DNA from: Patescibacteria group bacterium AH-259-L05 | GTDB lineage: Bacteria > Patescibacteriota > Patescibacteriia > UBA2591 > UBA6264 | DNA length: 32,649 bases | Assembly: GCA_027717985.1 (NCBI GenBank) | Contig: JALLOO010000009.1 | Location: forward strand, 1-32,649 | Reading direction: 5' to 3' | Shown here: piece by piece, positions 14,987 to 30,582 of the stretch | Position numbering within the stretch: the first letter of the stretch is position 1 | Layout: the number at the start of each line of letters is the position of its first letter | Notes under the pieces: model-generated | The model's database searches: none | What the model was told of the DNA's origin: nothing | The model's input: only the letters and a program-made list of their open reading frames with translations | Translations under genes and position numbers: made by a program

Positions 14987-15370
14987 ATGGCTGACAAAAA
15001 ACATAAAATACTTATTGCAGAGGATGATATTTTTATTTCTCGTGCATATAAAGATGGGCTTGAACAGGCGGGGTTTGAGGTTATTACTGCGGCAGATGGT
15101 CAAGAGACATTGGAAAAAATTCGTACGGAAAAGCCGCGCCTGGTCTTGCTTGACTTAATTATGCCAAACAAAAATGGCTTTGAAGTTTTAGAAGAGGTAA
15201 AAGGGGATGAGGCATTAAGGAAGGTACCTATTGTTATCCTGTCTAATTTAGGACAGGAATCAGATATTGAAAAAGGCAAAGAACTGGGGGCAATTGATTA
15301 TTTAGTAAAAGCTGATTTAAGTATGAGGCAAGTAATTGAAAAAATAAAACAATATGTAACTAAGACATAG
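14987..15370 (+). CDS. single-domain CheY-like response regulator
   Basis: KILIAEDDIFISRAYKDGLEQAGFEVITAADG, RLVLLDLIMPNKNGFEVLEEVK, PIVILSNLGQ, DYLVKAD. Confidence 0.9.
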   Translation: MADKKHKILIAEDDIFISRAYKDGLEQAGFEVITAADGQETLEKIRTEKPRLVLLDLIMPNKNGFEVLEEVKGDEALRKVPIVILSNLGQESDIEKGKELGAIDYLVKADLSMRQVIEKIKQYVTKT

Positions 15371-17065
15371 ATGAAAATTACACCTGAAAAATTAAAAGCA
15401 CTTCTGGTTGATCCAGGGCATATCTCAGCACCACAGTTTAAAGCTGCTGTTGATGAGGCAAAGAAGAGGAAAAAAGATCTTGCCGATGTTATAGTAGATA
15501 ACAATTTAATTAAGGATGAGCAGTTGGGACGTTTGTTAGCTGAAGAGAGCGAGTACCCTTTTGTTAATCTGCGAAAAGAGAAAATAGATGAAACAGTGCT
15601 TAATTTAATTCCTGAGCTGGTTGCCCAATCAAAAGGAGTGATTGCGTATGAACATACAAAAGAAGGGGTAAAAGTTGGGATGGTTATGCCAGATGATTTA
15701 GAGGTGCGGCATTTAATAGAAAAGCGCATCGGGGAAAGAGTGCTGCCGCGATTTATCACCAAGCGCGACTTAAATGAAGCGCTTTTTAAGTATAAGCCAT
15801 CATTAAAAGAAGATTTTGAAGACATTTTAAAAGAACTGGAGAGAAGTGATCTGCCAAGAGATAAGCGGGATGACGCAATCGTTAAAATGGTTGACGCACT
15901 GCTTATATATGGATATGAGAATAAAGCATCTGATATTCATATTGAGCCGTATATAAATAAAGTTATGGTACGCTTCAGGATTGATGGAGTGATGCATGAT
16001 GTGTTAGAGATTCCTAAAGAGCTGTTGGATTTTATTATTACGCGCATTAAAATTTTGTCTAAACTTCGTATTGATGAACATCGGGCAGCACAGGACGGCA
16101 AATTCCGTTTTAATACAAAAGGAGGACTTGTTGATGTGCGTGTTTCTGTTGTTCCGGTAACCGAGGGGGAAAATGCAGTAATGCGTCTGTTATCTGCAAA
16201 GGGACGCCAATTTAATCTTGTTGGTCTTGGTTTATTGGGGCATGATTTAAAAAAAGTAAAACGGGCAATCCGCCGGCCGCACGGTATGATTTTAGTTACC
16301 GGTCCTACCGGGAGCGGAAAAACAACAACATTGTATGCGGTGTTGGAAATTTTAAATGTCAGAGATATTCATATTTCAACTATTGAAGATCCTGTAGAGT
16401 ATGATATAGAGGGTGTGAGCCAAATCCAAGTCAATCCTAAGACTAATCTTACGTTTGCGAAAGGGTTGCGCGCTATTGTACGTCAAGATCCTGATATTAT
16501 TATGATAGGAGAGATTAGGGATAGAGAGACCGCCGGGATTGCGGTAAACTCTGCCTTAACCGGTCATTTGGTGCTCTCTACGCTTCATACCAATGATGCA
16601 GCCACCACATTGCCGCGGTTACTTGATATGCGGGTGGAGCCGTTTTTGGTTGCCTCAACCGTTAATGTTGTAATTGCACAGCGTTTGGTGCGCAAAATTT
16701 GTGAAAAGTGCCGTGCTTCATATACATTAACCAAAGAAGAAAAAGCAAATATTCTTGTTGAGCCAGCAGTTATTACTATTTTAAAACGATTAGGACATGA
16801 AAATTTAGATAAGATTACTCTTTTTAAGGGCAATGGATGCAAGGCATGCACCGAAAGCGGGTATAAGGGGCGTATTGGCGTTTTTGAAGTGCTGGAAATG
16901 GAAGAGAATATAAGGGAATTGGTTTTAGGGCATGCGTCGAGTAATGAACTTATGAAAAAAGCAGTTAAGGAAAACGGCATGACAACCATGCTCTATGACG
17001 GCCTTGAAAAGGTATTTCGCGGCATGACAACCATAGAAGAAGTGCTTCGCGTCACCCGCGAATAA
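15371..17065 (+). CDS. pilB: type IV pilus assembly ATPase PilB / GspE
   Basis: ASDIHIEPY, GPTGSGKTTTLYAVL, TIEDPVEYDIEGVSQIQVN, GEIRDRETAGIAVNSALTGHLVLSTLHTNDA, CxxC pairs. Confidence 0.95.
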   Translation: MKITPEKLKALLVDPGHISAPQFKAAVDEAKKRKKDLADVIVDNNLIKDEQLGRLLAEESEYPFVNLRKEKIDETVLNLIPELVAQSKGVIAYEHTKEGVKVGMVMPDDLEVRHLIEKRIGERVLPRFITKRDLNEALFKYKPSLKEDFEDILKELERSDLPRDKRDDAIVKMVDALLIYGYENKASDIHIEPYINKVMVRFRIDGVMHDVLEIPKELLDFIITRIKILSKLRIDEHRAAQDGKFRFNTKGGLVDVRVSVVPVTEGENAVMRLLSAKGRQFNLVGLGLLGHDLKKVKRAIRRPHGMILVTGPTGSGKTTTLYAVLEILNVRDIHISTIEDPVEYDIEGVSQIQVNPKTNLTFAKGLRAIVRQDPDIIMIGEIRDRETAGIAVNSALTGHLVLSTLHTNDAATTLPRLLDMRVEPFLVASTVNVVIAQRLVRKICEKCRASYTLTKEEKANILVEPAVITILKRLGHENLDKITLFKGNGCKACTESGYKGRIGVFEVLEMEENIRELVLGHASSNELMKKAVKENGMTTMLYDGLEKVFRGMTTIEEVLRVTRE

Positions 17066-17077
17066 GCTATAGTATCT

Positions 17078-18163
17078 ATGAAACAAAAAAAGAAATCATT
17101 ATTTGAGAAAGAGATTGCTATCGGTGGTGTGACATTAACCCATAAGGCAATCTTTGCTCGTCATTTATCAGTAATGCTTAAGGCAGGGCTTACCATTATT
17201 GAGGCATTGGAGATTGCAAAGGATTCTACAACAGGAAAATTTAAAAAAATATTATCTCAGGTAATGCATTCAGTTCGTTCAGGCCGTTCATTTACCGAAT
17301 CATTGAAAGATCATGGCCGTGTATTTTCAGGGCTTTTTGTCAATGCGGTGTATGCAGGTGAGCAGTCAGGAACGTTAGAAAAGAATTTGGGGAATATTGC
17401 AAAACAGTTAGAAAAAGAGCGCGAACTCGTTTCAAAAATAAAAGGAGCAATGCTTTATCCGATTGTGGTATTAATTGCCGCGTTTATATTAGGCATGGTT
17501 ATTTCTTTTTTAATATTGCCCAAGATTATACCCCTTTTTGAAGGTTTAGGAACAGAGTTGCCCGCAACCACAAAAGCTTTAATATGGTTTTCACATTTTG
17601 TCCAAGCGCATGGACTGATTTTATTTATCGCCATTATTATATTGGTAATAGCACTGACGTGGGTTATACGGCAAAAATGGAGCAGGCCCGTGACTCATTT
17701 ATTGCTCTTAAATACTCCGGTCATTGGAAAATTGGTCAAGAATACTAATTTAGCCCGGTTTTCAAGAATATTGGCTACCCTTATAAGAAGCGGCATTAAT
17801 ATTGATGAAGCAATTCATATTACTAAGGATACGGTTGGCAATTATTATTACCAAAGGGCATTAGATGACGTGAGTAAAAGAGTAGGTAAGGGAACAGAGC
17901 TTTCAGAAAACTTTGATGAATTTGATCATTTATTTCCCACTTTAGTGGTAAAAATGATTAAGGTGGGAGAAAAGTCAGGAAAGCTTGAAGAAGTATTATT
18001 TTATGTAGCTGAGTTTTATGAGACCGAAGTTGATACCTCGGTTAAGTCATTATCAACAGCTATTGAGCCAATTCTTCTTATTGGCATTGGTTTGATTGTC
18101 GGTTTTTTAGCGTTATCAATTATCACGCCGATTTATAAGATTACCGGGGGAATTGCACGATAA
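17078..18163 (+). CDS. pilC: type IV pilus inner-membrane platform protein PilC / GspF
   Basis: FARHLSVMLKAGLTIIEALEIA, SLKDHGRVFSGLFVNAVYAGEQSGTLE, LARFSRILATLIRSGINIDEAI, MIKVGEKSGKLEEVL. Confidence 0.93.
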   Translation: MKQKKKSLFEKEIAIGGVTLTHKAIFARHLSVMLKAGLTIIEALEIAKDSTTGKFKKILSQVMHSVRSGRSFTESLKDHGRVFSGLFVNAVYAGEQSGTLEKNLGNIAKQLEKERELVSKIKGAMLYPIVVLIAAFILGMVISFLILPKIIPLFEGLGTELPATTKALIWFSHFVQAHGLILFIAIIILVIALTWVIRQKWSRPVTHLLLLNTPVIGKLVKNTNLARFSRILATLIRSGINIDEAIHITKDTVGNYYYQRALDDVSKRVGKGTELSENFDEFDHLFPTLVVKMIKVGEKSGKLEEVLFYVAEFYETEVDTSVKSLSTAIEPILLIGIGLIVGFLALSIITPIYKITGGIAR

Positions 18164-18164
18164 T

Positions 18165-19169
18165 ATGAAATCTTTTACTCTCATCGAGCTTCTTATCGTT
18201 ATCAGTGTAATGGTGATTGTCATTGCCGCAGGTGTGCCTCTTTATGGTAATTTACAGGTAACGAGTCAGCTAAATGAAAATACGAATCAAATTATTCAAA
18301 CAATACGAACAGCGCATCAGCGAAGCGTCTCGAGGGTCAATGACAGTTCACACGGCGTACGCTTTGAAATAAATCCTTCAAGCAATGATCAATACATTTT
18401 ATATCAAGGTTCGTCGTATAGTACGAGAGATAGTAGTTATGATAGGACGGTTACCTTAGATAGCCCTCTTCATATAGCAACAACGCTCAGTGGTAATGAA
18501 GTTAATTTTTCGAGGAGTTTAGGAACGCCCAATACAACCGGAAGTATTGTTCTTTCTCATGATACGACAGGAACAAGGGCGATCAGTATTAACAGTTTTG
18601 GTATTGTTGAAGAGGTGGTCCCTGAAAGCGAAGTAACGTTGTATGCAGGTAGAGATTCATATATGCGCCAGGGAGTACCTAGTACAAATTATGGGACTGA
18701 TGCCCAGATTCAAGAATACCCTCGAAATATTGGATACAACAGACGAGGGCTTATTTGGTTTGACCTTTCCTCTATACCAGGGGGTGCGACGATTAATTCA
18801 GCCACACTCTATCTTTACGAAGCACAAACATATGGGCTTGCACGAACGGTCGCCATTCATAGATTGACACAGGGTTGGACGGAGAGCGGTGTTACGTGGG
18901 CTAGCTATGATGGAACAAATTCGTGGACTTTATCTGGTGGTGACTACGATACAACGCCAACAGCTACTGCTGTTATAACTTGGACAGGAGCATTGAAATG
19001 GGATAGTTGGGATGTTACCGCTGGTGTTGGTGAATTTATTAATAACACGTACTCCAATTATGGCTGGCTTATAAAAGACAATACTGAGGATACATCAGAG
19101 GCATACTGGTTTTTCGCCTCACGCGAGGTCACAAATCAGCCATACCTGGTGGTAAATTATTCTTTGTAG
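18165..19169 (+). CDS. prepilin-like protein with C-terminal DNRLRE-like domain
   Basis: MKSFTLIELLIVISVMVIVIAAGVPLYGNL; C-terminal VTLYAGRDSYMRQGVPSTNYGTDAQIQ..RRGLIWFDLSSIPGGATINSATLYLYE..WTESGVTWASY. Confidence 0.85.
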   Translation: MKSFTLIELLIVISVMVIVIAAGVPLYGNLQVTSQLNENTNQIIQTIRTAHQRSVSRVNDSSHGVRFEINPSSNDQYILYQGSSYSTRDSSYDRTVTLDSPLHIATTLSGNEVNFSRSLGTPNTTGSIVLSHDTTGTRAISINSFGIVEEVVPESEVTLYAGRDSYMRQGVPSTNYGTDAQIQEYPRNIGYNRRGLIWFDLSSIPGGATINSATLYLYEAQTYGLARTVAIHRLTQGWTESGVTWASYDGTNSWTLSGGDYDTTPTATAVITWTGALKWDSWDVTAGVGEFINNTYSNYGWLIKDNTEDTSEAYWFFASREVTNQPYLVVNYSL

Positions 19170-19173
19170 CCAC

Positions 19174-22100
19174 ATGACGGACATAAAATATAACAATGCA
19201 CAGTCTATTCTAGAGGTCATACTTGCGGTGGCTATTTTTTCTTTAATTAGTATGGTTATGGTATCGTTTATAACCGGCGGGTTTCAAGGGATACAGCAAG
19301 GAGGTGATCAAACTGAGGCAGAGGCTTTGGCGAGTGAAGGAATTGAGGCAGTTCGTGCTGTTCGTGATAGAGCATGGAACGAGCTTATACCAAGTCCGGC
19401 AGTTGTTTCTATAAGCGGAAGCCAGTGGATTATATCAAGCGGCGCTTCAGAGTTAATTAATAATAAATATACACGAGCGATTATATTTAATTCTGTATGC
19501 CGTGATGCATTAGATGAAATTGCAACCTGTCCTGGCACGTATGTGGATATTCATAGTACACAAGTTGTAGTTACCGTGAACTGGGAAACACGAGAAGGAG
19601 TTACCAATACCGTACGAAAAACAGCATATTTAACCAACTGGGATTCAACTGAGTGGGCACAAACGGATTGGAATGGCGGCTCAGGGCAGAGTATTTGGTC
19701 TGATACAACCCGGTATGATTCAGACGACAGCAATATTGATTATAGTACGGTAACTGGTCAAGTTACTCTTGTTGATAACTCAATTGGCAGATGGATATTC
19801 GCTGGCGGCGTACAGGTTATTGATACCACTGATAGTGATTTTAATAGCGGGGATACGACTGATGATACAGCTATATCAGGAGCAGGTGTAGGCGCAAGTA
19901 TTGTTTTGGCTCAAAGTGTTATATGGACTGAACATGCTGACAGCGGTTTAGCCACCAATCAGAATTTAAACGATTTAGATATTGTATCTTCATTGAATAT
20001 TTGGGCAGTGGGGAATAGCGGCAAAGTGTTGCATTATAATGGTACTACGTGGTCAGAATTTGATGATATGGGCAAACCAAAGATATTTGCAATAGATATG
20101 ATATCAAGTACTGATGGTTGGGCTATTGGTTATAGTGGTAAAATATATCATTACAATGGTACGAGTTGGAGCGAGTTTGTAGATACTGGCTCTATGACCT
20201 GGCGTTCTATAGATATGGTTTCCGCCACTGACGGATGGGCAGTTGGTGAGAGCGGATATATATATCACTATGATGGTGCAAATTGGACTGAATTTATGGA
20301 TACGGGCGGCGAGGATTGGTATGGCGTTGATATGGTTTCCGCCACTGACGGATGGGCAGTGGCGCAAAGCGGGAAGATTCTTCATTATAATGGCACCAAT
20401 TGGTCAGAAGTTTTGTCTCCGGTGGGGGATAATTTAAATAGTATTTCCATGATTTCATCCACTGACGGATGGGCAGTGGGTGATATAGACAAGAGAGTAC
20501 TTCATTATGATGGTAACAGCTGGACTGAAGTTGTTTCGCCAACAGGTCTTCATTTACAAAGTGTTTCCATGACATCTGCCACAGACGGCTCAGCAGTTGG
20601 CGATGGCGGTGTTGCACTTCATTATGATGGGATCAATTGGTCAGAGGTTACATCACCCATTTTTAATGATATTTTTGCGGTAGAAATGAGCTCTTTTTCA
20701 AGCGGCTGGGCAGTTGGAGAGAATGGCCGCATATTGCAATATGGAAGTTTTTATCTCAATTCAGGAACATTTTTATCAAGAATATTTGACAGTAGTGATA
20801 CAAATACTTCATGGGATCAGGCGTACTGGACTGAAGTCCTTCCTTCAGGATCAGATTTAACCATTGCGACGAGAACGGGTAATACAAGTACGCCGGATGA
20901 AACATGGTCAGCATTTAGTGCGGAATTAACTGATTCTGACTCATCTACTATCTCCTCTCCTGATGGCAGATATTTCCAGTATCGAGCCACGCTTATTAGA
21001 GGAGATAGTGCGAGCGCAACACCACAGTTAGATGATATTACGATTATCTATAACGCGCCAACCACTAAGAATTTAAATGATATCAGTATTGTATCCTCAT
21101 CAAATATTTGGGCAGTGGGGAATAGCGGCAAAGTGTTGCACTATAATGGCACTACGTGGTCAGAATTTATAGATCTGGGAGGAGAAGAGATCTATGCGAT
21201 AGATATGGATTCTGCCAGTGATGGCTGGACAGTAGGCGAAGGAGGAAAAATGTTTCATTATGATGGTACTACGTGGTCATCTGGGTCTTCACCAACAAAC
21301 AAAAATTTAAATGATGTTTTTATCGTGGATAATGATGATGGTTGGGCAGTGGGTGATAACGGGACAATTATTTATTATGATGAGTCCTGGTCATCAGTTT
21401 CATCGCCAACCAATCAACATCTTAATTCTTTGTTTATGACAGATGAAGACGATGGCTGGGCTGTTGGAGAGGATGGTAAGGTATTACAAGCTAATGATGG
21501 GGATTGGTCAGAGTTTACAGATACCGGGGATCAGGTCTGGTATGATATTTTTATGGTAAGTGACAATGATGGTTGGATGGTGGGTGACAGCGGCAGAATC
21601 TGGCACTATAATGGGACTAGTTGGTCAGAGTTTATAGATACCGGGAGCACAAACTGGAGGACTGTATATCTTGTCTCATCCGCTGATGGTTGGGCAGGAG
21701 GGAGCAATGGAGAATTATATCATTTTGATGGGAACAGTTGGACAAACGCGTCATCACCAACCACTCGGCGTATTAAAAGTATTGAAATGATTGATACGGC
21801 TGATGGTTGGGCCGTAGGCAATAACGGAACTATACTCCAGCTGACCACTGAAGGATTATATGCTGAAAATGGCTGGCTTATTTCTTCAGCATTTGATATG
21901 GGTAACACGTCGCCTGTCCAAGTTATTGCATGGGATCAAATAATTCCAACATGCTCACCAAGTTGTGAGGTTAGATTTCAGTTGCGTACTGCGCCAGATG
22001 CGAGCGGTTCACCCGGTACCTGGACATCTTGGTATGGAGCGACTGGCGCCGGCTCTTATTTTACAAATGCCAATGGCACTATTGTTTCAGCAGATATTAA

Positions 22101-22191
22101 TGGCAATCAATGGGTGCAGTATCGAGCAGAGTTAATCGGTGACGGGCTTAATACAGCAGTTCTACAAGAAGTACGCATAAACTATAAGTAG
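19174..22191 (+). CDS. giant prepilin-like surface protein with two 7-repeat propeller regions and two similar beta-rich modules
   Basis: NNAQSILEVILAVAIFSLISMVMVSF prepilin N-terminus; about 14 repeats DGWAVGxxGxIxHYxGxxWSEF with a 39-aa period. Confidence 0.85.
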   Translation: MTDIKYNNAQSILEVILAVAIFSLISMVMVSFITGGFQGIQQGGDQTEAEALASEGIEAVRAVRDRAWNELIPSPAVVSISGSQWIISSGASELINNKYTRAIIFNSVCRDALDEIATCPGTYVDIHSTQVVVTVNWETREGVTNTVRKTAYLTNWDSTEWAQTDWNGGSGQSIWSDTTRYDSDDSNIDYSTVTGQVTLVDNSIGRWIFAGGVQVIDTTDSDFNSGDTTDDTAISGAGVGASIVLAQSVIWTEHADSGLATNQNLNDLDIVSSLNIWAVGNSGKVLHYNGTTWSEFDDMGKPKIFAIDMISSTDGWAIGYSGKIYHYNGTSWSEFVDTGSMTWRSIDMVSATDGWAVGESGYIYHYDGANWTEFMDTGGEDWYGVDMVSATDGWAVAQSGKILHYNGTNWSEVLSPVGDNLNSISMISSTDGWAVGDIDKRVLHYDGNSWTEVVSPTGLHLQSVSMTSATDGSAVGDGGVALHYDGINWSEVTSPIFNDIFAVEMSSFSSGWAVGENGRILQYGSFYLNSGTFLSRIFDSSDTNTSWDQAYWTEVLPSGSDLTIATRTGNTSTPDETWSAFSAELTDSDSSTISSPDGRYFQYRATLIRGDSASATPQLDDITIIYNAPTTKNLNDISIVSSSNIWAVGNSGKVLHYNGTTWSEFIDLGGEEIYAIDMDSASDGWTVGEGGKMFHYDGTTWSSGSSPTNKNLNDVFIVDNDDGWAVGDNGTIIYYDESWSSVSSPTNQHLNSLFMTDEDDGWAVGEDGKVLQANDGDWSEFTDTGDQVWYDIFMVSDNDGWMVGDSGRIWHYNGTSWSEFIDTGSTNWRTVYLVSSADGWAGGSNGELYHFDGNSWTNASSPTTRRIKSIEMIDTADGWAVGNNGTILQLTTEGLYAENGWLISSAFDMGNTSPVQVIAWDQIIPTCSPSCEVRFQLRTAPDASGSPGTWTSWYGATGAGSYFTNANGTIVSADINGNQWVQYRAELIGDGLNTAVLQEVRINYK

Positions 22192-22194
22192 TTT

Positions 22195-23226
22195 ATGAAA
22201 TTTCAAATTACAAATTCCAAACAAGCCGGATTCACCCTTATCGAGCTTTTAATTGTTATTGCTGTTATCGCCATCATTGCCTCAGTTGTCTTTGTAGCAC
22301 TCAATCCTTTACAGCGTTTTCAAGATACTCGAGATTCTCAACGCAGACAGGATATTAGTGCCATTGCTGATGCGATAAGAATCTATCAAATAGTGAATGC
22401 TGGTCAAGTACCTGCTGGGATTGATGAAAATTGGAGGATGTTAGGAACTGATACCACGGGCTGTAATGTTACCTGCGGATTTAGCGGGACACCCACTACG
22501 GTCTTGTCTCGGGTGGCAGATGGCAATGATGATGCTGAGGAACAAAATCCGCCCAATGGAAATATGTATATAACAAGTACTGATCTTGAATTGGTTGTAG
22601 AAGGCGGTACCGTAGACCAAGAAGTTGGTATGCGTTTTTTAAATATGACTCTTCCCCAGAGCGATACGATTTCAAATGCCTATATTGAGTTCACGGTTGA
22701 TGAAACAGATTCAGGCACGACCAATCTGACGTTTTACGGCGAAGATATTGATAATGCTCCTGCATTTACCAGTACAGATGGGGATATTACGAACAGATCC
22801 AAGACATCGGCGGGTGTTTCATGGAATAATGTGCCAGCATGGACTTCAGTTGGTGCAACCCACCAGACCCCTAGTCTTGCTTCTATTATTCAAGAGATTG
22901 TTAATAGGTCTGGGTGGATTGGCGGTAATGCAATCGTCATTGTTGTTGATGGTACGGGAGAGCGGACAGCAGAGTCATATAATGGGAGTCCTGCACAAGC
23001 ACCGTTGTTAGTTGTTGAGTATCAATCTGGCGGGGCGGTGGCAACACAGCCATCCTGTCTTGATTTATCCTCTACTTTAAGTTCGCAATTATCTGCTATT
23101 GGTCAAGATCCTTCTGATGGTAGCGCTGCGAGATCCTACTATGCACTGCGTCGTCGGCCCGCAGGGCAGATCGATGTTATCGCCTGCAGTCCAGAGGGGG
23201 GACAGGATATTAGTAGAACTAAGTAA
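22195..23226 (+). CDS. prepilin with a DNRLRE-like domain inserted in the pilin scaffold
   Basis: AGFTLIELLIVIAVIAIIASVVFVALNPLQRFQDTRDSQRRQDI; insert about 22495-23040; scaffold resumes at CLDLSSTLSSQLSAIGQDPSDGS. Confidence 0.85.
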   Translation: MKFQITNSKQAGFTLIELLIVIAVIAIIASVVFVALNPLQRFQDTRDSQRRQDISAIADAIRIYQIVNAGQVPAGIDENWRMLGTDTTGCNVTCGFSGTPTTVLSRVADGNDDAEEQNPPNGNMYITSTDLELVVEGGTVDQEVGMRFLNMTLPQSDTISNAYIEFTVDETDSGTTNLTFYGEDIDNAPAFTSTDGDITNRSKTSAGVSWNNVPAWTSVGATHQTPSLASIIQEIVNRSGWIGGNAIVIVVDGTGERTAESYNGSPAQAPLLVVEYQSGGAVATQPSCLDLSSTLSSQLSAIGQDPSDGSAARSYYALRRRPAGQIDVIACSPEGGQDISRTK

Positions 23227-23243: not shown

Positions 23244-23807
23244 ATGTTAAAAATAAATAAAAAGAATTACTCGTTACGTGTTATACGTTATTCATTACGA
23301 TCAGGCTTTACCCTCATAGAAACTTTGGTCTATGTCGCTATCATTGGTATAGTAATCGTTTCGTTTGTAACCTTTAGTATTTCTATTTCAAATTCTCGAA
23401 ATAAAGCATATGTTACTACTGAGGTACAGGAAAATGCACGTATAGCCTTGGAGGTGATACGTCAAAGAATACACGCGGCGAATAATGTTACTATAGGCTC
23501 TTCAACATTTGATACTGATCCGGGTATCTTGTCTTTGCAGGTTGCTGATACGAGTAGAAATCCAACGATTATTGATTTAACTGCTGATGATGGATCGTTG
23601 CGTATTACCGAAGGGGTAAATAGTCCGGTCATAATCACCAGTGATGAGGTACGTGTAGTAAATTTAGTATTTACCAATTTAACATCACCAAATATAAGCC
23701 GAGAAAATATTAGAATTGAGATCACCGTTGATTATAATACTACCGGGGGTGATGTTGAATACAATTATTCATATAGTTTACAAACAGCAGTTAGTTTACG
23801 TCAGTAA
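23244..23807 (+). CDS. minor prepilin-like protein (PulJ/PilW-like)
   Basis: SGFTLIETLVYVAIIGIVIVSFVTF; ENARIALEVIRQRIHAANNV. Confidence 0.8.
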   Translation: MLKINKKNYSLRVIRYSLRSGFTLIETLVYVAIIGIVIVSFVTFSISISNSRNKAYVTTEVQENARIALEVIRQRIHAANNVTIGSSTFDTDPGILSLQVADTSRNPTIIDLTADDGSLRITEGVNSPVIITSDEVRVVNLVFTNLTSPNISRENIRIEITVDYNTTGGDVEYNYSYSLQTAVSLRQ

Positions 23808-23919
23808 CTCATAGAGTTAACCATTGACAATTGACAAAATGTCACATGTCAAGGGTTCACCGATAGATAATAAAAGTATGTTAAAGCACACATGTCAAAG
23901 GACAAATGTCAAAGGTCAC

Positions 23920-24318
23920 ATGTCACACAAGAGTGCTGTTGCAGCTCTTCTGATTGTTATCATTATAAGTGCTGTTGCTCTTCTTATGGCATATTCTGCA
24001 TCAATTCTTGGGATAGGAGAGCTTGATATAGGATATACTGCACAACGTGGTGGGGAAGCATTTTCAGTTGCAGATGGATGTGTTGAAGAAACATTACGAA
24101 GGATTACCCTTGATAGTAATTATGGCATAGGAGCAGGATTAATTAACTTAACAGTTTCTAATGGATCATGTACAATACAAGTGTCGGATCTTGGCAGCAG
24201 TCGAAGAAGAATAGTTGTTACGGGCACAAGTGGAGTGTATAATAAGAAGATAGAGACAGAAATTACGTTAAGCAGTACTCCTATAACTATAGATACGTGG
24301 CAAGAAACCACAGATTAA
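23920..24318 (+). CDS. PilX-like minor pilin (ORF open from 23824)
   Basis: KSAVAALLIVIIISAVALLMAYSASILGIGELDIGYTAQRGGEAFSVADGCVEETLRRI; the upstream ORF extension is repeat-derived. Confidence 0.7.
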   Translation: MSHKSAVAALLIVIIISAVALLMAYSASILGIGELDIGYTAQRGGEAFSVADGCVEETLRRITLDSNYGIGAGLINLTVSNGSCTIQVSDLGSSRRRIVVTGTSGVYNKKIETEITLSSTPITIDTWQETTD

Positions 24319-24319
24319 A

Positions 24320-25585
24320 ATGAAACAAAGTGATATCATAACAGGACTACAAAAACGGACAGTCGTCTCATGGCTCTCTATGTTTTTTGTGTTGGCTATT
24401 TTATTATTTTTAGCGCCCATGGGGCTTATTTTTTCCTGGCAAATGGTAATCTTGTTTTTAGCGTCTGCTGCGGCTCTTAATCTATTATTTAGCTGGTTTG
24501 TTAAAAAAAATATATTTATTGAGAGTAGTACGTGGCTGTGGCCGTTTTCAGAAATTTGGATTATTAGCTTAATTGTATACTATACTGGTGGGTTTGCATC
24601 TGTATTTAGTTTTCTCTATCTTGTTCCTATTATAACGTCGGCGTTGTTATTTTCTTTAAGTGCGGGATTGAGCATGGCAGTTCTTTCGAGCCTTGCCTAT
24701 TTATCTCTCACGATGATGGAATTGTATGAGATAATTCCCCATATTTCATCTCTCGGCGTACGAATTTTAACGTGGGACGATAATTTTTATATCGCATTTT
24801 CAGTTCTTTTAAATCGTATTCTTATCTTTTTTGCAGTAGCATATTTTGGTGGATATTTATCAGGCAAGCAACGGGCAGTTGAGCGAATGAAAAGTGAATT
24901 TGTATTTTTAGCTTCACATCAATTGCGAACACCGATTACCGCGATTCGATTATTTGTTGAAATGCTTAGAGATTCTGCAAAAGAAGAACTGAGTGATCAG
25001 AATAAACGATATTTAGAAAATATTTATCATTCTACCAAGCGAATGATTCAGTTAGTGGGAGACTTACTTAATGTTTCTCGTATTGAATCAGATCGACTGA
25101 CCATCAGGCCGCAAATGACTCGCCTTGAAGGTCTTGTTGCTGATGTAATTGAAGAGACAAAGCCGCTGGCTGATGTAAAAGGCTGCCGATTTAAATTTAG
25201 TAGACCCGAGGCGCGATTGGATAAGGTTTTGATTGATCCAAGACTTCTTCGCCAGATACTTCATAATCTAATAACCAATGCGATTCATTATTCAAGGCAA
25301 GAGGGAGGAGATATTGTGATTTGTCTTGAGCGAGGGAAAAAAGATTATACGATTAGTGTTAAAGATTTTGGCGTTGGAATTTCTAACGCTGACAAGAATA
25401 GAATTTTTGAAAAGTTTTTTAGAGCAGATAATGCGATTAAATTAAAGCCTGAGGGAACTGGTCTCGGCCTTTATATTGTTAAAACACTTATTACTACTCT
25501 TGGAGGAAAAATTTGGTTTGAGTCAGAGTTAAATAAGGGGACTACGTTTTATATCGTTATACCCAAGAACAATAAATCAAAATAA
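24320..25585 (+). CDS. PilS-like sensor histidine kinase
   Basis: multi-TM N-terminus; FLASHQLRTPITAIR, NLITNAIHYS, VKDFGVGIS, FFRADNA, GTGLGLYIVK. Confidence 0.93.
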   Translation: MKQSDIITGLQKRTVVSWLSMFFVLAILLFLAPMGLIFSWQMVILFLASAAALNLLFSWFVKKNIFIESSTWLWPFSEIWIISLIVYYTGGFASVFSFLYLVPIITSALLFSLSAGLSMAVLSSLAYLSLTMMELYEIIPHISSLGVRILTWDDNFYIAFSVLLNRILIFFAVAYFGGYLSGKQRAVERMKSEFVFLASHQLRTPITAIRLFVEMLRDSAKEELSDQNKRYLENIYHSTKRMIQLVGDLLNVSRIESDRLTIRPQMTRLEGLVADVIEETKPLADVKGCRFKFSRPEARLDKVLIDPRLLRQILHNLITNAIHYSRQEGGDIVICLERGKKDYTISVKDFGVGISNADKNRIFEKFFRADNAIKLKPEGTGLGLYIVKTLITTLGGKIWFESELNKGTTFYIVIPKNNKSK

Positions 25586-27634
25586 ATGTTTTCTTTTCTA
25601 CAAAAAAAATCTGTTGGCCTTGATATTGCTGATCATACGATTGAGGCAGTTGAGTTGATAAGAACAGGAGCCGGGACAAGAGTAGTAAATGTATCGCGTC
25701 TCGTATTAGAGCCAGGCATACTTACGCGCGGAAGGATTAAACATAAAGAAAAATTAGTTACTGCAGTTAAAAAGGTGTTATTATCTGCCAAGCCGAATCC
25801 TATTATTACAAAAAAGGTATATTGTGCACTTCCTGAAAGTCAAGTATATACCCATGTTTTTGATACGGTTTTATATGGTAAAGATATAAATGCACGAAGC
25901 GTTGTTGAAAGGCGAAGACAATTGATTTTAGAGGATATTCAAAAAACCATCCCGCTTCCCAAGGAAGATATTGTATATGATAGTCGGGTGATCGGTGCGC
26001 GAGCAGTAGATCGTAAGAGCATTAACGTAGAGAGCGTTGTGGTGGCGGCACATAAGGAGGTAGTTTTAGAGTGGCAGCAGTTTTTTAAAGACCTTAAAAT
26101 AGATATAGATTTTTTTGATATTGAAGCATTGGCAGTATTTCGTGGTTTATTTCCCAAGCCAGTTAAAAAACCGGTATGCATTATTGATATAGGTGCGGTC
26201 ACGACAACGGTTGCTATTTTTGAAAAGATTGATTTGCGTTTTTCATATTCAATATATACTGCCGGCGATATTTTAACCGCTGCTATCGCACAAGAATTAA
26301 AACTTAAAACAGATAAGGCAGAAGAAATGAAAATAAAAAATGGCTTAACAGGAGATAAGACCATTGCGCAGGTTATAAAAAAAACGCTTGATCCAATAGT
26401 ACATGATATAAAAGAGTCGGTCGAATATTATGAGGCTAAGCGGCAAAAAAAAGTAAGCGAGATTGTTTTAGTTGGCGGTTCTTCTCGATTGCGCGGGTTG
26501 GTTGATTATTTTACAAAACAGGCGGGTATGCCAGTACGAATAGGAGAGTTAGCATTTGCGTTTGGCAAAAAAAAGTCAGAGAAGAATCTTTTTTATATTG
26601 GCGCTCTTGGCATGGCACTTCGCACATTATCTAAAAAATGGGAAGATCGGCATCCTCAAATAAGTTTAATACGAGAACCGCATGTAAAAATAAAAGAGAT
26701 AAAAGAAGAGGAAGAGCAGATTAGGTCACGTGATCAATCAAGAGAGACGCAAGAACAAAAAAAAATCAAATCCTTTCGATCTAAGGAAAGGCTACATCAA
26801 AAAAAAGTTCGTTTGCAAAAGATTATACTCGCCCTTATTGTTATCGGGGGGATAGGATTGCTCATAGCTGCGTATACGTATCGTGAACGCGAAAAAATAC
26901 AGCAACGTAAAGAAATACAGTCTCAGGCTTTGCAATATAGCACCACCCAATCATTTGATATAGACATCCCCGTTGCTATAGATGAACGTGAATATACAAG
27001 CGATAGAGCAAAAGGTAGAGCCATTACCAGTACTATTTTAGGAGCTCAAACGTATGATGAGGCAGTGGCGCGTGCTCGTATCCAAGCAGAAAAAGAATTA
27101 CAGCAAGGAGAAGTATTGTGGCAAAAACCAATAAGCCAAGAGTCTGAAGTATTAAAATTTCCGCTTATAATTAAGTGGGTCGCCTATGTTTTCTACGATA
27201 GTAATGATCTGATTATAAAAGAAGTAGACAAATTAAATAAAAACAATATTGACTATGCACTTAACAATATTGTTAAGCTTAAGCTTGAGCCAAGCGACAA
27301 TAAAAATATATATATTCTTACTGGCAGGGTGACGATTTCAGTAAATCAGCTGATTGAGATTGAGGAGCCAGAAGAAGAAAGCGCAGAGGAAACGGGAGAG
27401 GAAAAGATAGACAAACAACCTGAAGTGATTGGGCAAGAAGTGGTAAAGATTCAAGAAACAGGCATTGCGTATTTAAATGCTAGATCAGGTCCAGGAACAA
27501 ATTATGATAAAGTTGGAAGAGTTTATCCTGGAAAAAGTTATCCACAGTTGCAGGAACAAGATTTATGGTATAAAATAAAGATAGATGATACTACGGAGGG
27601 ATGGATTTATTCTATCTATACTACAAAAGAGTAA
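25586..27634 (+). CDS. pilM: PilM-like (FtsA/actin fold) protein fused to a TM segment, an extracytoplasmic region and a C-terminal SH3b domain
   Basis: VGLDIADHTIEAVEL, CALPESQVYTHVFDT, CIIDIGAVTTTVAIFE, EIVLVGGSSRLRGLVDYF; TM IILALIVIGGIGLLIAAYTY; SH3b AYLNARSGPGTNYDKVGRVYPGKSY..EGWIYSIYTT. Confidence 0.85.
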   Translation: MFSFLQKKSVGLDIADHTIEAVELIRTGAGTRVVNVSRLVLEPGILTRGRIKHKEKLVTAVKKVLLSAKPNPIITKKVYCALPESQVYTHVFDTVLYGKDINARSVVERRRQLILEDIQKTIPLPKEDIVYDSRVIGARAVDRKSINVESVVVAAHKEVVLEWQQFFKDLKIDIDFFDIEALAVFRGLFPKPVKKPVCIIDIGAVTTTVAIFEKIDLRFSYSIYTAGDILTAAIAQELKLKTDKAEEMKIKNGLTGDKTIAQVIKKTLDPIVHDIKESVEYYEAKRQKKVSEIVLVGGSSRLRGLVDYFTKQAGMPVRIGELAFAFGKKKSEKNLFYIGALGMALRTLSKKWEDRHPQISLIREPHVKIKEIKEEEEQIRSRDQSRETQEQKKIKSFRSKERLHQKKVRLQKIILALIVIGGIGLLIAAYTYREREKIQQRKEIQSQALQYSTTQSFDIDIPVAIDEREYTSDRAKGRAITSTILGAQTYDEAVARARIQAEKELQQGEVLWQKPISQESEVLKFPLIIKWVAYVFYDSNDLIIKEVDKLNKNNIDYALNNIVKLKLEPSDNKNIYILTGRVTISVNQLIEIEEPEEESAEETGEEKIDKQPEVIGQEVVKIQETGIAYLNARSGPGTNYDKVGRVYPGKSYPQLQEQDLWYKIKIDDTTEGWIYSIYTTKE

Positions 27635-27676: not shown

Positions 27677-28210
27677 GTGTTAAATAAAAAAAATATGGTA
27701 AAAGCAAATAATAACGGATTCACACTTATCGAGCTTTTAATCGTAATTGCTGTGATTGCTATTTTAGCTGGTGTTGTATTTGTTGCATTAGACCCACTGA
27801 CCAGGTTTCGAGATGCACGCGATTCTTCTCGATGGTCGGATGTTAACGAAGTTCTAAGTGCTATAAAAATCGATCAGGTTGATAATGACGGCACCTACCT
27901 TAGTGCGATTACAAGTATGACTGCAGGAGAGGTATACATGATTACTGATGGCGGCGGCACTGATTGTGATGGAGGAAATGCTAATTGTGATACTAATGTG
28001 ACTGCAGAAGTAGTTGCAGGTGATCACTGTGTTGATTTAGTAGGTTTGGTTACTGAAGGATATCTTGGAGATATTCCTCTTAGTCCTGATGGGGCTGGTA
28101 CATGGACAGCGGCGCTCTCTGGTTATACACTTCAGCGTGATGCAACAGGTATTGTCACCGTCAGAGCATGTGAATCTGAAAATACGACTGAAATTTGGGT
28201 AGCACGATAG
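27677..28210 (+). CDS. type IV prepilin, simple scaffold
   Basis: NGFTLIELLIVIAVIAILAGVVFVALDPLTRFRDARDSSRWSDVNEVLSAIKIDQ; CVDLVGLVTEGYLGDIPLSPDG. Confidence 0.88.
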   Translation: MLNKKNMVKANNNGFTLIELLIVIAVIAILAGVVFVALDPLTRFRDARDSSRWSDVNEVLSAIKIDQVDNDGTYLSAITSMTAGEVYMITDGGGTDCDGGNANCDTNVTAEVVAGDHCVDLVGLVTEGYLGDIPLSPDGAGTWTAALSGYTLQRDATGIVTVRACESENTTEIWVAR

Positions 28211-30441: not shown

Positions 30442-30505
30442 TAAAGCTTGGATACAAATATCATACCTTACAAGCTTCAAGGTTCTGACGAAGTCAGGTT
30501 CTTAT
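30442..30505 (-). repeat. two-hairpin repeat family, copy A (tandem with B)
   Basis: aaagcttggatacaaatatcataccttacaagcttcaaggttctgacgaagtcaggttcttat. Confidence 0.9.
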
Positions 30506-30566
30506 AGTTTGGATATAAATCTCACTCCTTTCAAACTTCAAGGTTCTGACGAAGTCAGGTTCTTAT
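30506..30566 (-). repeat. two-hairpin repeat family, copy B
   Basis: agtttggatataaatctcactcctttcaaacttcaaggttctgacgaagtcaggttcttat; last 28 nt identical to copy A. Confidence 0.9.
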
Positions 30567-30582
30567 ATTGGCATCGGTTTTT

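Follow-up and report, generated by a model that had tools for sequence, protein, structure and literature searches.

A candidate minor pilin with two Ycf48-type propellers in a pilus-operon slot with a variable middle in Patescibacteria

Results

We describe a gene from a tiny, uncultivated Patescibacteria organism (Patescibacteria group bacterium AH-259-L05) whose 1,005-residue product, P0001 (19174-22191, plus strand), joins a PilV/GspI-type pilin module, a propeller, a beta-rich module (S1), a second propeller, and a second beta-rich module (S2). It lies in the window, the whole 32,649-nt stretch of DNA that was analysed, within a genome assembly of 1.03 Mb in 63 contigs that is 77.5% complete. 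At the level of sequence, both the domain architecture of the protein and its slot in a pil operon are shown; related species exchange the middle of the gene in this slot, and the two-propeller form is one of its states. We consider it probable that P0001 is a modular minor pilin, processed by PilD and located at or near the pilus tip, with propellers that bind outward and a middle that can be exchanged. Modular pilins, and a propeller pilin of Saccharibacteria that host binding requires, have already been published, and the 1,005-residue protein is a variant on these.

Domain Architecture

The frame and length of the ORF in the original prediction are both correct on re-reading, and the 39-residue period it had noticed dominates residues 256-940, with a mean BLOSUM62 self-score at offset 39 of 1.06, where shuffled sequences reach at most -0.52. 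With a blade HMM we located exactly 7 + 7 units, at residues 261-529 and 629-891 (nt 19954-20760 and 21058-21846), ranges close to those of the two seven-repeat blocks first proposed (about 19950-20750 and 21060-21845). As had been suggested, profile comparisons support placing the propellers in the Ycf48/PSII_BNR family: PF14870 scores 53.9 bits on the protein (cutoff, 27), and an alignment profile matches solved Ycf48 structures (E 3e-12). An AvrE_T3Es match (17.8 bits; cutoff, 24) overlaps the propeller repeats and was rejected, being taken as propeller cross-matching.

Table 1. Positions in the window of the parts of the 1,005-residue protein and of neighboring pilus genes
Feature	Positions	Strand	Basis or remark
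PilB-type extension ATPase with MshEN domain (c-di-GMP type)	15371..17065	+	family scan
PilC/GspF platform protein	17078..18163	+	family scan
GspH-slot pilin with DNRLRE/CBM96 domain	18153..19169	+	family scan
Prepilin leader, aa 1-9 (MTDIKYNNA)	19174..19200	+	sequence; cleavage predicted between Ala (-1) and Gln10, Glu at +5
PilV/GspI-type pilin module, aa 10-154	19201..19635	+	AF2, alignments; helix 12-64, beta-sheet 76-154, conserved Cys pair 109/119
Conserved NWDS..W.QTDW.GG.GQ..W segment, aa 155-200, closing the constant N-terminal scaffold	19636..19773	+	alignments
Linker, aa 201-246, predicted disordered (pLDDT <50; aa 199-247 in the full model)	19774..19911	+	AF2
Beta-propeller 1, aa 247-529: 7 blade units, closing strand 247-253	19912..20760	+	period, blade HMM, AF2
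66-nt tract, blade 1 of propeller 1	19996..20061	+	2 mismatches to 21103-21168
Beta-rich module S1, aa 529-627	20758..21054	+	HMM, hhalign
Beta-propeller 2, aa 629-891: 7 blade units	21058..21846	+	period, blade HMM, AF2
66-nt tract, blade 1 of propeller 2	21103..21168	+	matches 19996-20061; recent copy or conversion
Terminal beta-rich module S2, aa 898-1005	21865..22188	+	HMM, hhalign; kept by nearly all relatives, irrespective of their middle
Second modular pilin: N_methyl + CBM96-like module	22195..23226	+	family scan, comparison with L037
GspJ/PilW-like minor pilin	23244..23807	+	family scan
GspK/PilX-like protein, named by position; no family match	23824..24318	+	position
PilM, 682 aa, with a transmembrane segment and SH3_3 at the C terminus	25586..27634	+	family scan
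PilA-like pilin, probable major pilin	27677..28210	+	family scan, operon comparison

The AlphaFold2 model of the whole protein (pTM 0.41, from 17 aligned rows) leaves the arrangement of the domains unfixed, and its blade pLDDT is mostly 80-95 across both blocks, with both propellers close to 90. Each propeller has 27 modelled strands, and in propeller 1 a preceding strand (residues 247-253) is able to complete the 28 of a closed 7 x 4 ring. Two closed propellers and two matching sandwiches had been expected from such a model; it gives two seven-unit, putatively closed propellers, the strand count of propeller 1 fitting 7 x 4, and S1 and S2 come out beta-rich at a pLDDT of about 50-75. Because their fold is poorly predicted, the term "sandwich" is not established for them, and the pilin-propeller-sandwich-propeller-sandwich order originally proposed holds as an order only. 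Foldseek matches the model to tandem-propeller structures, BT4663 (E 9e-20) and AIP1, with low whole-chain TM-scores because the model does not determine domain orientation. The similarity first noted between the modules that follow the two propellers is homology, as S1 (residues 529-627) and S2 (residues 898-1005), at only 29% identity, align by hhalign over 95 columns (probability 95.5%, E 1.4e-8), and their HMM cross-matches score above 500 shuffles.

The signs of a prepilin N-terminus are mixed. Glu5 and a hydrophobic 53-residue helix (residues 12-64) are present, and AlphaFold2 models the pilin module as this helix followed by strands at residues 76-154 (pLDDT about 55-85), but the leader has Ala rather than Gly at -1, and PF07963 (N_methyl) is not reached by the protein itself in a Pfam scan at E 0.1. 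Among its relatives 21 of 41 match PF07963; most have Gly at -1, and the Ala of P0001 is shared by L070 and L071, plus L099 and L102. PilD and PilT are both encoded in the source genome. Given the Ala at -1 in the P0001 family, processing is the weakest link of the pilus reading.

The 66-nt tracts, each in the first blade of its propeller, differ at 2 sites, and this near-identity indicates recent copying inside the gene. Against the sister protein, positional blade matching is strong in propeller 2 (72% vs. 40%) and weak in propeller 1 (50% vs. 44%, p 0.02). In other pairs the propellers and the pilin base diverge at similar rates, so the weak matching of propeller 1 is a local feature only, and we rejected the idea that blades generally turn over rapidly. 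We likewise rejected a diversity-generating retroelement as the cause of variation among propellers: the sole reverse transcriptase found in this incomplete genome resembles, judged by sequence, a group II intron maturase. Blade amplification is already known as a process in propellers (PMC9218822).

The Pilus Operon

The pilus genes of the window run in the order PilB, PilC, GspH-slot pilin, the 1,005-residue gene, second modular pilin, GspJ-like, GspK-like, PilS-like kinase, PilM, and PilA-like pilin (Table 1). In most of the 40 related loci that we fetched, the gene has the PilV/GspI position, between the GspH-like and GspJ-like pilins; in the window, an extra pilin (22195-23226) separates the 1,005-residue gene from the GspJ-like gene. 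The CBM96-like module of this extra pilin is 68% identical over 190 residues to a stretch of L037, a protein which belongs to another lineage, lies at a contig edge, and has the S module at its end; modules therefore probably also move between pilin genes. The sister locus L070 has both CBM96/DNRLRE pilin genes, and L071 has a 155-residue GspH-slot pilin and no match to the second of these genes.

A PilS-like histidine kinase with six transmembrane segments (24320-25585) lies inside the operon, and a single-domain response regulator (14987-15370) directly precedes pilB. With its fused transmembrane segment and SH3_3 domain, PilM is expected to be partly extracytoplasmic. Near the start of the GspK-like gene (23878-23925), a 14-nt unit is repeated 3.4 times, and every unit contains AAAGGA and ATG; copy number could therefore affect the start or frame of this gene. 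A 61-nt sequence occurs twice (89% match) between convergent genes at 30448-30567. The same genome encodes a second PilB-PilT-PilC cluster (L115, on contig C37 of G000); TM7x likewise has two pilus systems.

Constant Ends and a Variable Middle

Relatives of the N-terminal 200 residues (E <= 1e-8) were found in 134 of 381 genomes of the class and in 74 of 380 genomes sampled across the phylum. Named relatives of the gene are Patescibacteria (Uhr-, Magasanik-, Falkowbacteria, and others). The search for orthologs in pil loci of this phylum that had been proposed proved positive: in all 40 fetched loci, as far as contig ends permit, the gene has neighbors from the PilB-PilC-GspH-X-GspJ-GspK-PilM-PilA operon. 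Nearly all of these loci keep the pilin base and the terminal S module, and the middle varies, a propeller plus S occurring in it one to three times or giving way to something else. Ycf48-type propellers are present in 14 of the 40 and in the window, as one block (L071, L078, L080, L082, and L099, the last cut by a contig end), two blocks (the window, L070, L076, L086, L091, and L100), or three blocks' worth (L074 and L079, with 14 + 7 units, L108, and L109). Other middles contain LamG, LVIVD repeats, CBM_4_9, or DUF4082, or are without a family match, and in L096 (324 residues) and L127 (309 residues) nothing separates the base from S.

Most blocks have seven units, with six in block 2 of L070, in L071, and in block 3 of L109; block 2 of L076 also counts six but contains a run of N. 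The sister protein (L031/L070) has 7 + 6 units, and its propeller 2 (L031 residues 639-865) is also modelled with six blades. Six units are thus found in this region and in L071 residues 343-567 where propeller 2 of the window gene has seven: blade number has changed between orthologous propellers. Some genomes of family f18 (L126-L138) have two giant pilins, one of ~640 residues that is conserved across genera and another with a variable middle, ranging from 309 to 1039 residues.

Closely related loci show how the middle changes. L072 and L076 belong to one genus, with pil operon DNA about 70-73% identical and PilM 66% identical, and their alignment breaks near residue 196 and returns near the C terminus, LamG in L072 standing against two propellers in L076. 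Likewise, the congeneric L127 (309 residues) and L129 (1,030 residues) have bases of 62% and S modules of 52% identity, with ~720 extra residues between them in L129. The middle is unchanged in the congeneric pairs L131/L133 (74%), L135/L138 (69%), and L136/L137 (57%), so exchange is recurrent and not constant. On a pilin tree built by quick search, parsimony requires 7 changes of the propeller trait, at least 4 of them on well-supported (starred) branches. Constant ends and cassette exchange are shown insofar as sequence comparison can show them.

Discussion

Modular pilins are an established class, widespread and diverse, in which bulky binding domains are grafted on an N-terminal pilin module (PMC8179133); they include the adhesin PilB and PilC of S. 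sanguinis and an 860-residue Falkowbacteria pilin with 12 IPR013211 repeats (PMC8179133). The 1,005-residue protein likewise combines a pilin module with two domains that are not pilus specific (PF14870-type propellers), and differs from the surveyed modular pilins in its two tandem Ycf48-type propellers alternating with S, its constant S cap, and the exchange of its middle within genera. The closest tested case is PilX2 of the Saccharibacteria strain TM7x, also a Patescibacteria minor pilin with a seven-bladed propeller, described as one RCC1-repeat propeller, without which the share of hosts bound drops from about 10.6% to 4.6% (PMC12206443). By this description PilX2 is set apart from our protein, which has two propellers, of Ycf48 type, occupies the PilV/GspI slot, and matches no RCC1 family in a Pfam scan at E 0.1.

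Propellers are also shown at type IV pilus tips in the PilY1/PilC adhesins, but PilY1 is not a pilin and the 1,005-residue protein has its own pilin module, with PF05567 (PilY1) unmatched in its Pfam scan. Ycf48/HCF136 (PF14870), of the same propeller family by profile, is a single propeller that acts in photosystem II assembly. The best structural match, the BT4663 ectodomain of Bacteroides (4a2m), is extracellular and has tandem propellers followed by a beta-sandwich, but belongs to a membrane sensor kinase, not a pilin, and is about 10% identical. Our literature search for Ycf48-type propellers joined with pilins returned one unrelated cyanobacterial paper and nothing further.

In the reading that we favor, the N-terminal pilin module would be cut by PilD, and the cut pilin would join the operon's GspH-, GspJ-, and GspK-like pilins in a type IV pilus, at its tip or close to it. 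Both seven-bladed propellers, of Ycf48 type, and the S modules would point outward and bind another cell or a polymer, and PilT-driven retraction would pull the cell to the bound target; the pilin base and terminal S would form a constant scaffold, and the middle an exchangeable, repeat-expandable cassette. Processing, tip location, binding, and the partner are what we infer. The role of "tip adhesin" originally suggested is plausible, because the slot of the gene is that of a PilV/GspI minor pilin, its product exceeds the bulk that a shaft subunit could have, and a propeller pilin of Saccharibacteria is required for full binding to the host (PMC12206443).

We think it unlikely that the protein instead replaces PilY1 as a factor for tip-complex assembly or mechanosensing, its propellers priming extension or sensing tension with no specific partner bound. 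The gene does belong with the minor pilins; PilY1, which has a propeller at its C terminus, primes pili together with minor pilins (PMC7541494); and PF05567 matched in 0 of 286 genomes of the class, in a search that had no positive control genome, so that its absence is not established. Such priming would predict a conserved propeller, however, and close relatives with the same operon have LamG or nothing in its place. It seems rather improbable that the prepilin helix anchors the protein in the cell membrane, as a surface protein outside the filament: the Ala at -1, the unmatched PF07963, and the very large ectodomain would suit this, but linkage to the pil operon is strict (40/40 loci), and the orthologues mostly have Gly at -1, match N_methyl in 21 of 41 cases, and retain Glu5.

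That the propellers are carbohydrate-active (sialidase-like) enzymes or DNA-uptake receptors we regard as very improbable. Sialidase propellers fall in the Asp-box supercluster. PSII-like propellers belong to the same supercluster (PMC9218822), and the Thermus tip pilin ComZ is proposed to bind DNA (discussed in PMC8179133). Against this, family scans match no glycoside-hydrolase family in the protein or its relatives, the blades are near-uniform and lack a blade-specific catalytic insert, and relatives frequently carry cassettes of lectin-like LamG or CBM fold.

We tentatively propose, as a possibility, that in many Patescibacteria one tip minor-pilin slot is a specificity cassette, in which the base and S cap stay constant and the middle is swapped as a whole, deleted, or expanded in steps of one propeller plus S, setting the partner cell or polymer; if true, this could be likened to the way in which phages swap tail-fibre modules. 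The whole-unit shifts in propeller number (one, two, or three) between related pilins are useful for the study of repeat-fold evolution. For the question of how Patescibacteria pick their partners, a single slot whose ends stay constant while its middle can be exchanged offers a defined place to look, and cassette type could be compared with host range over genomes.
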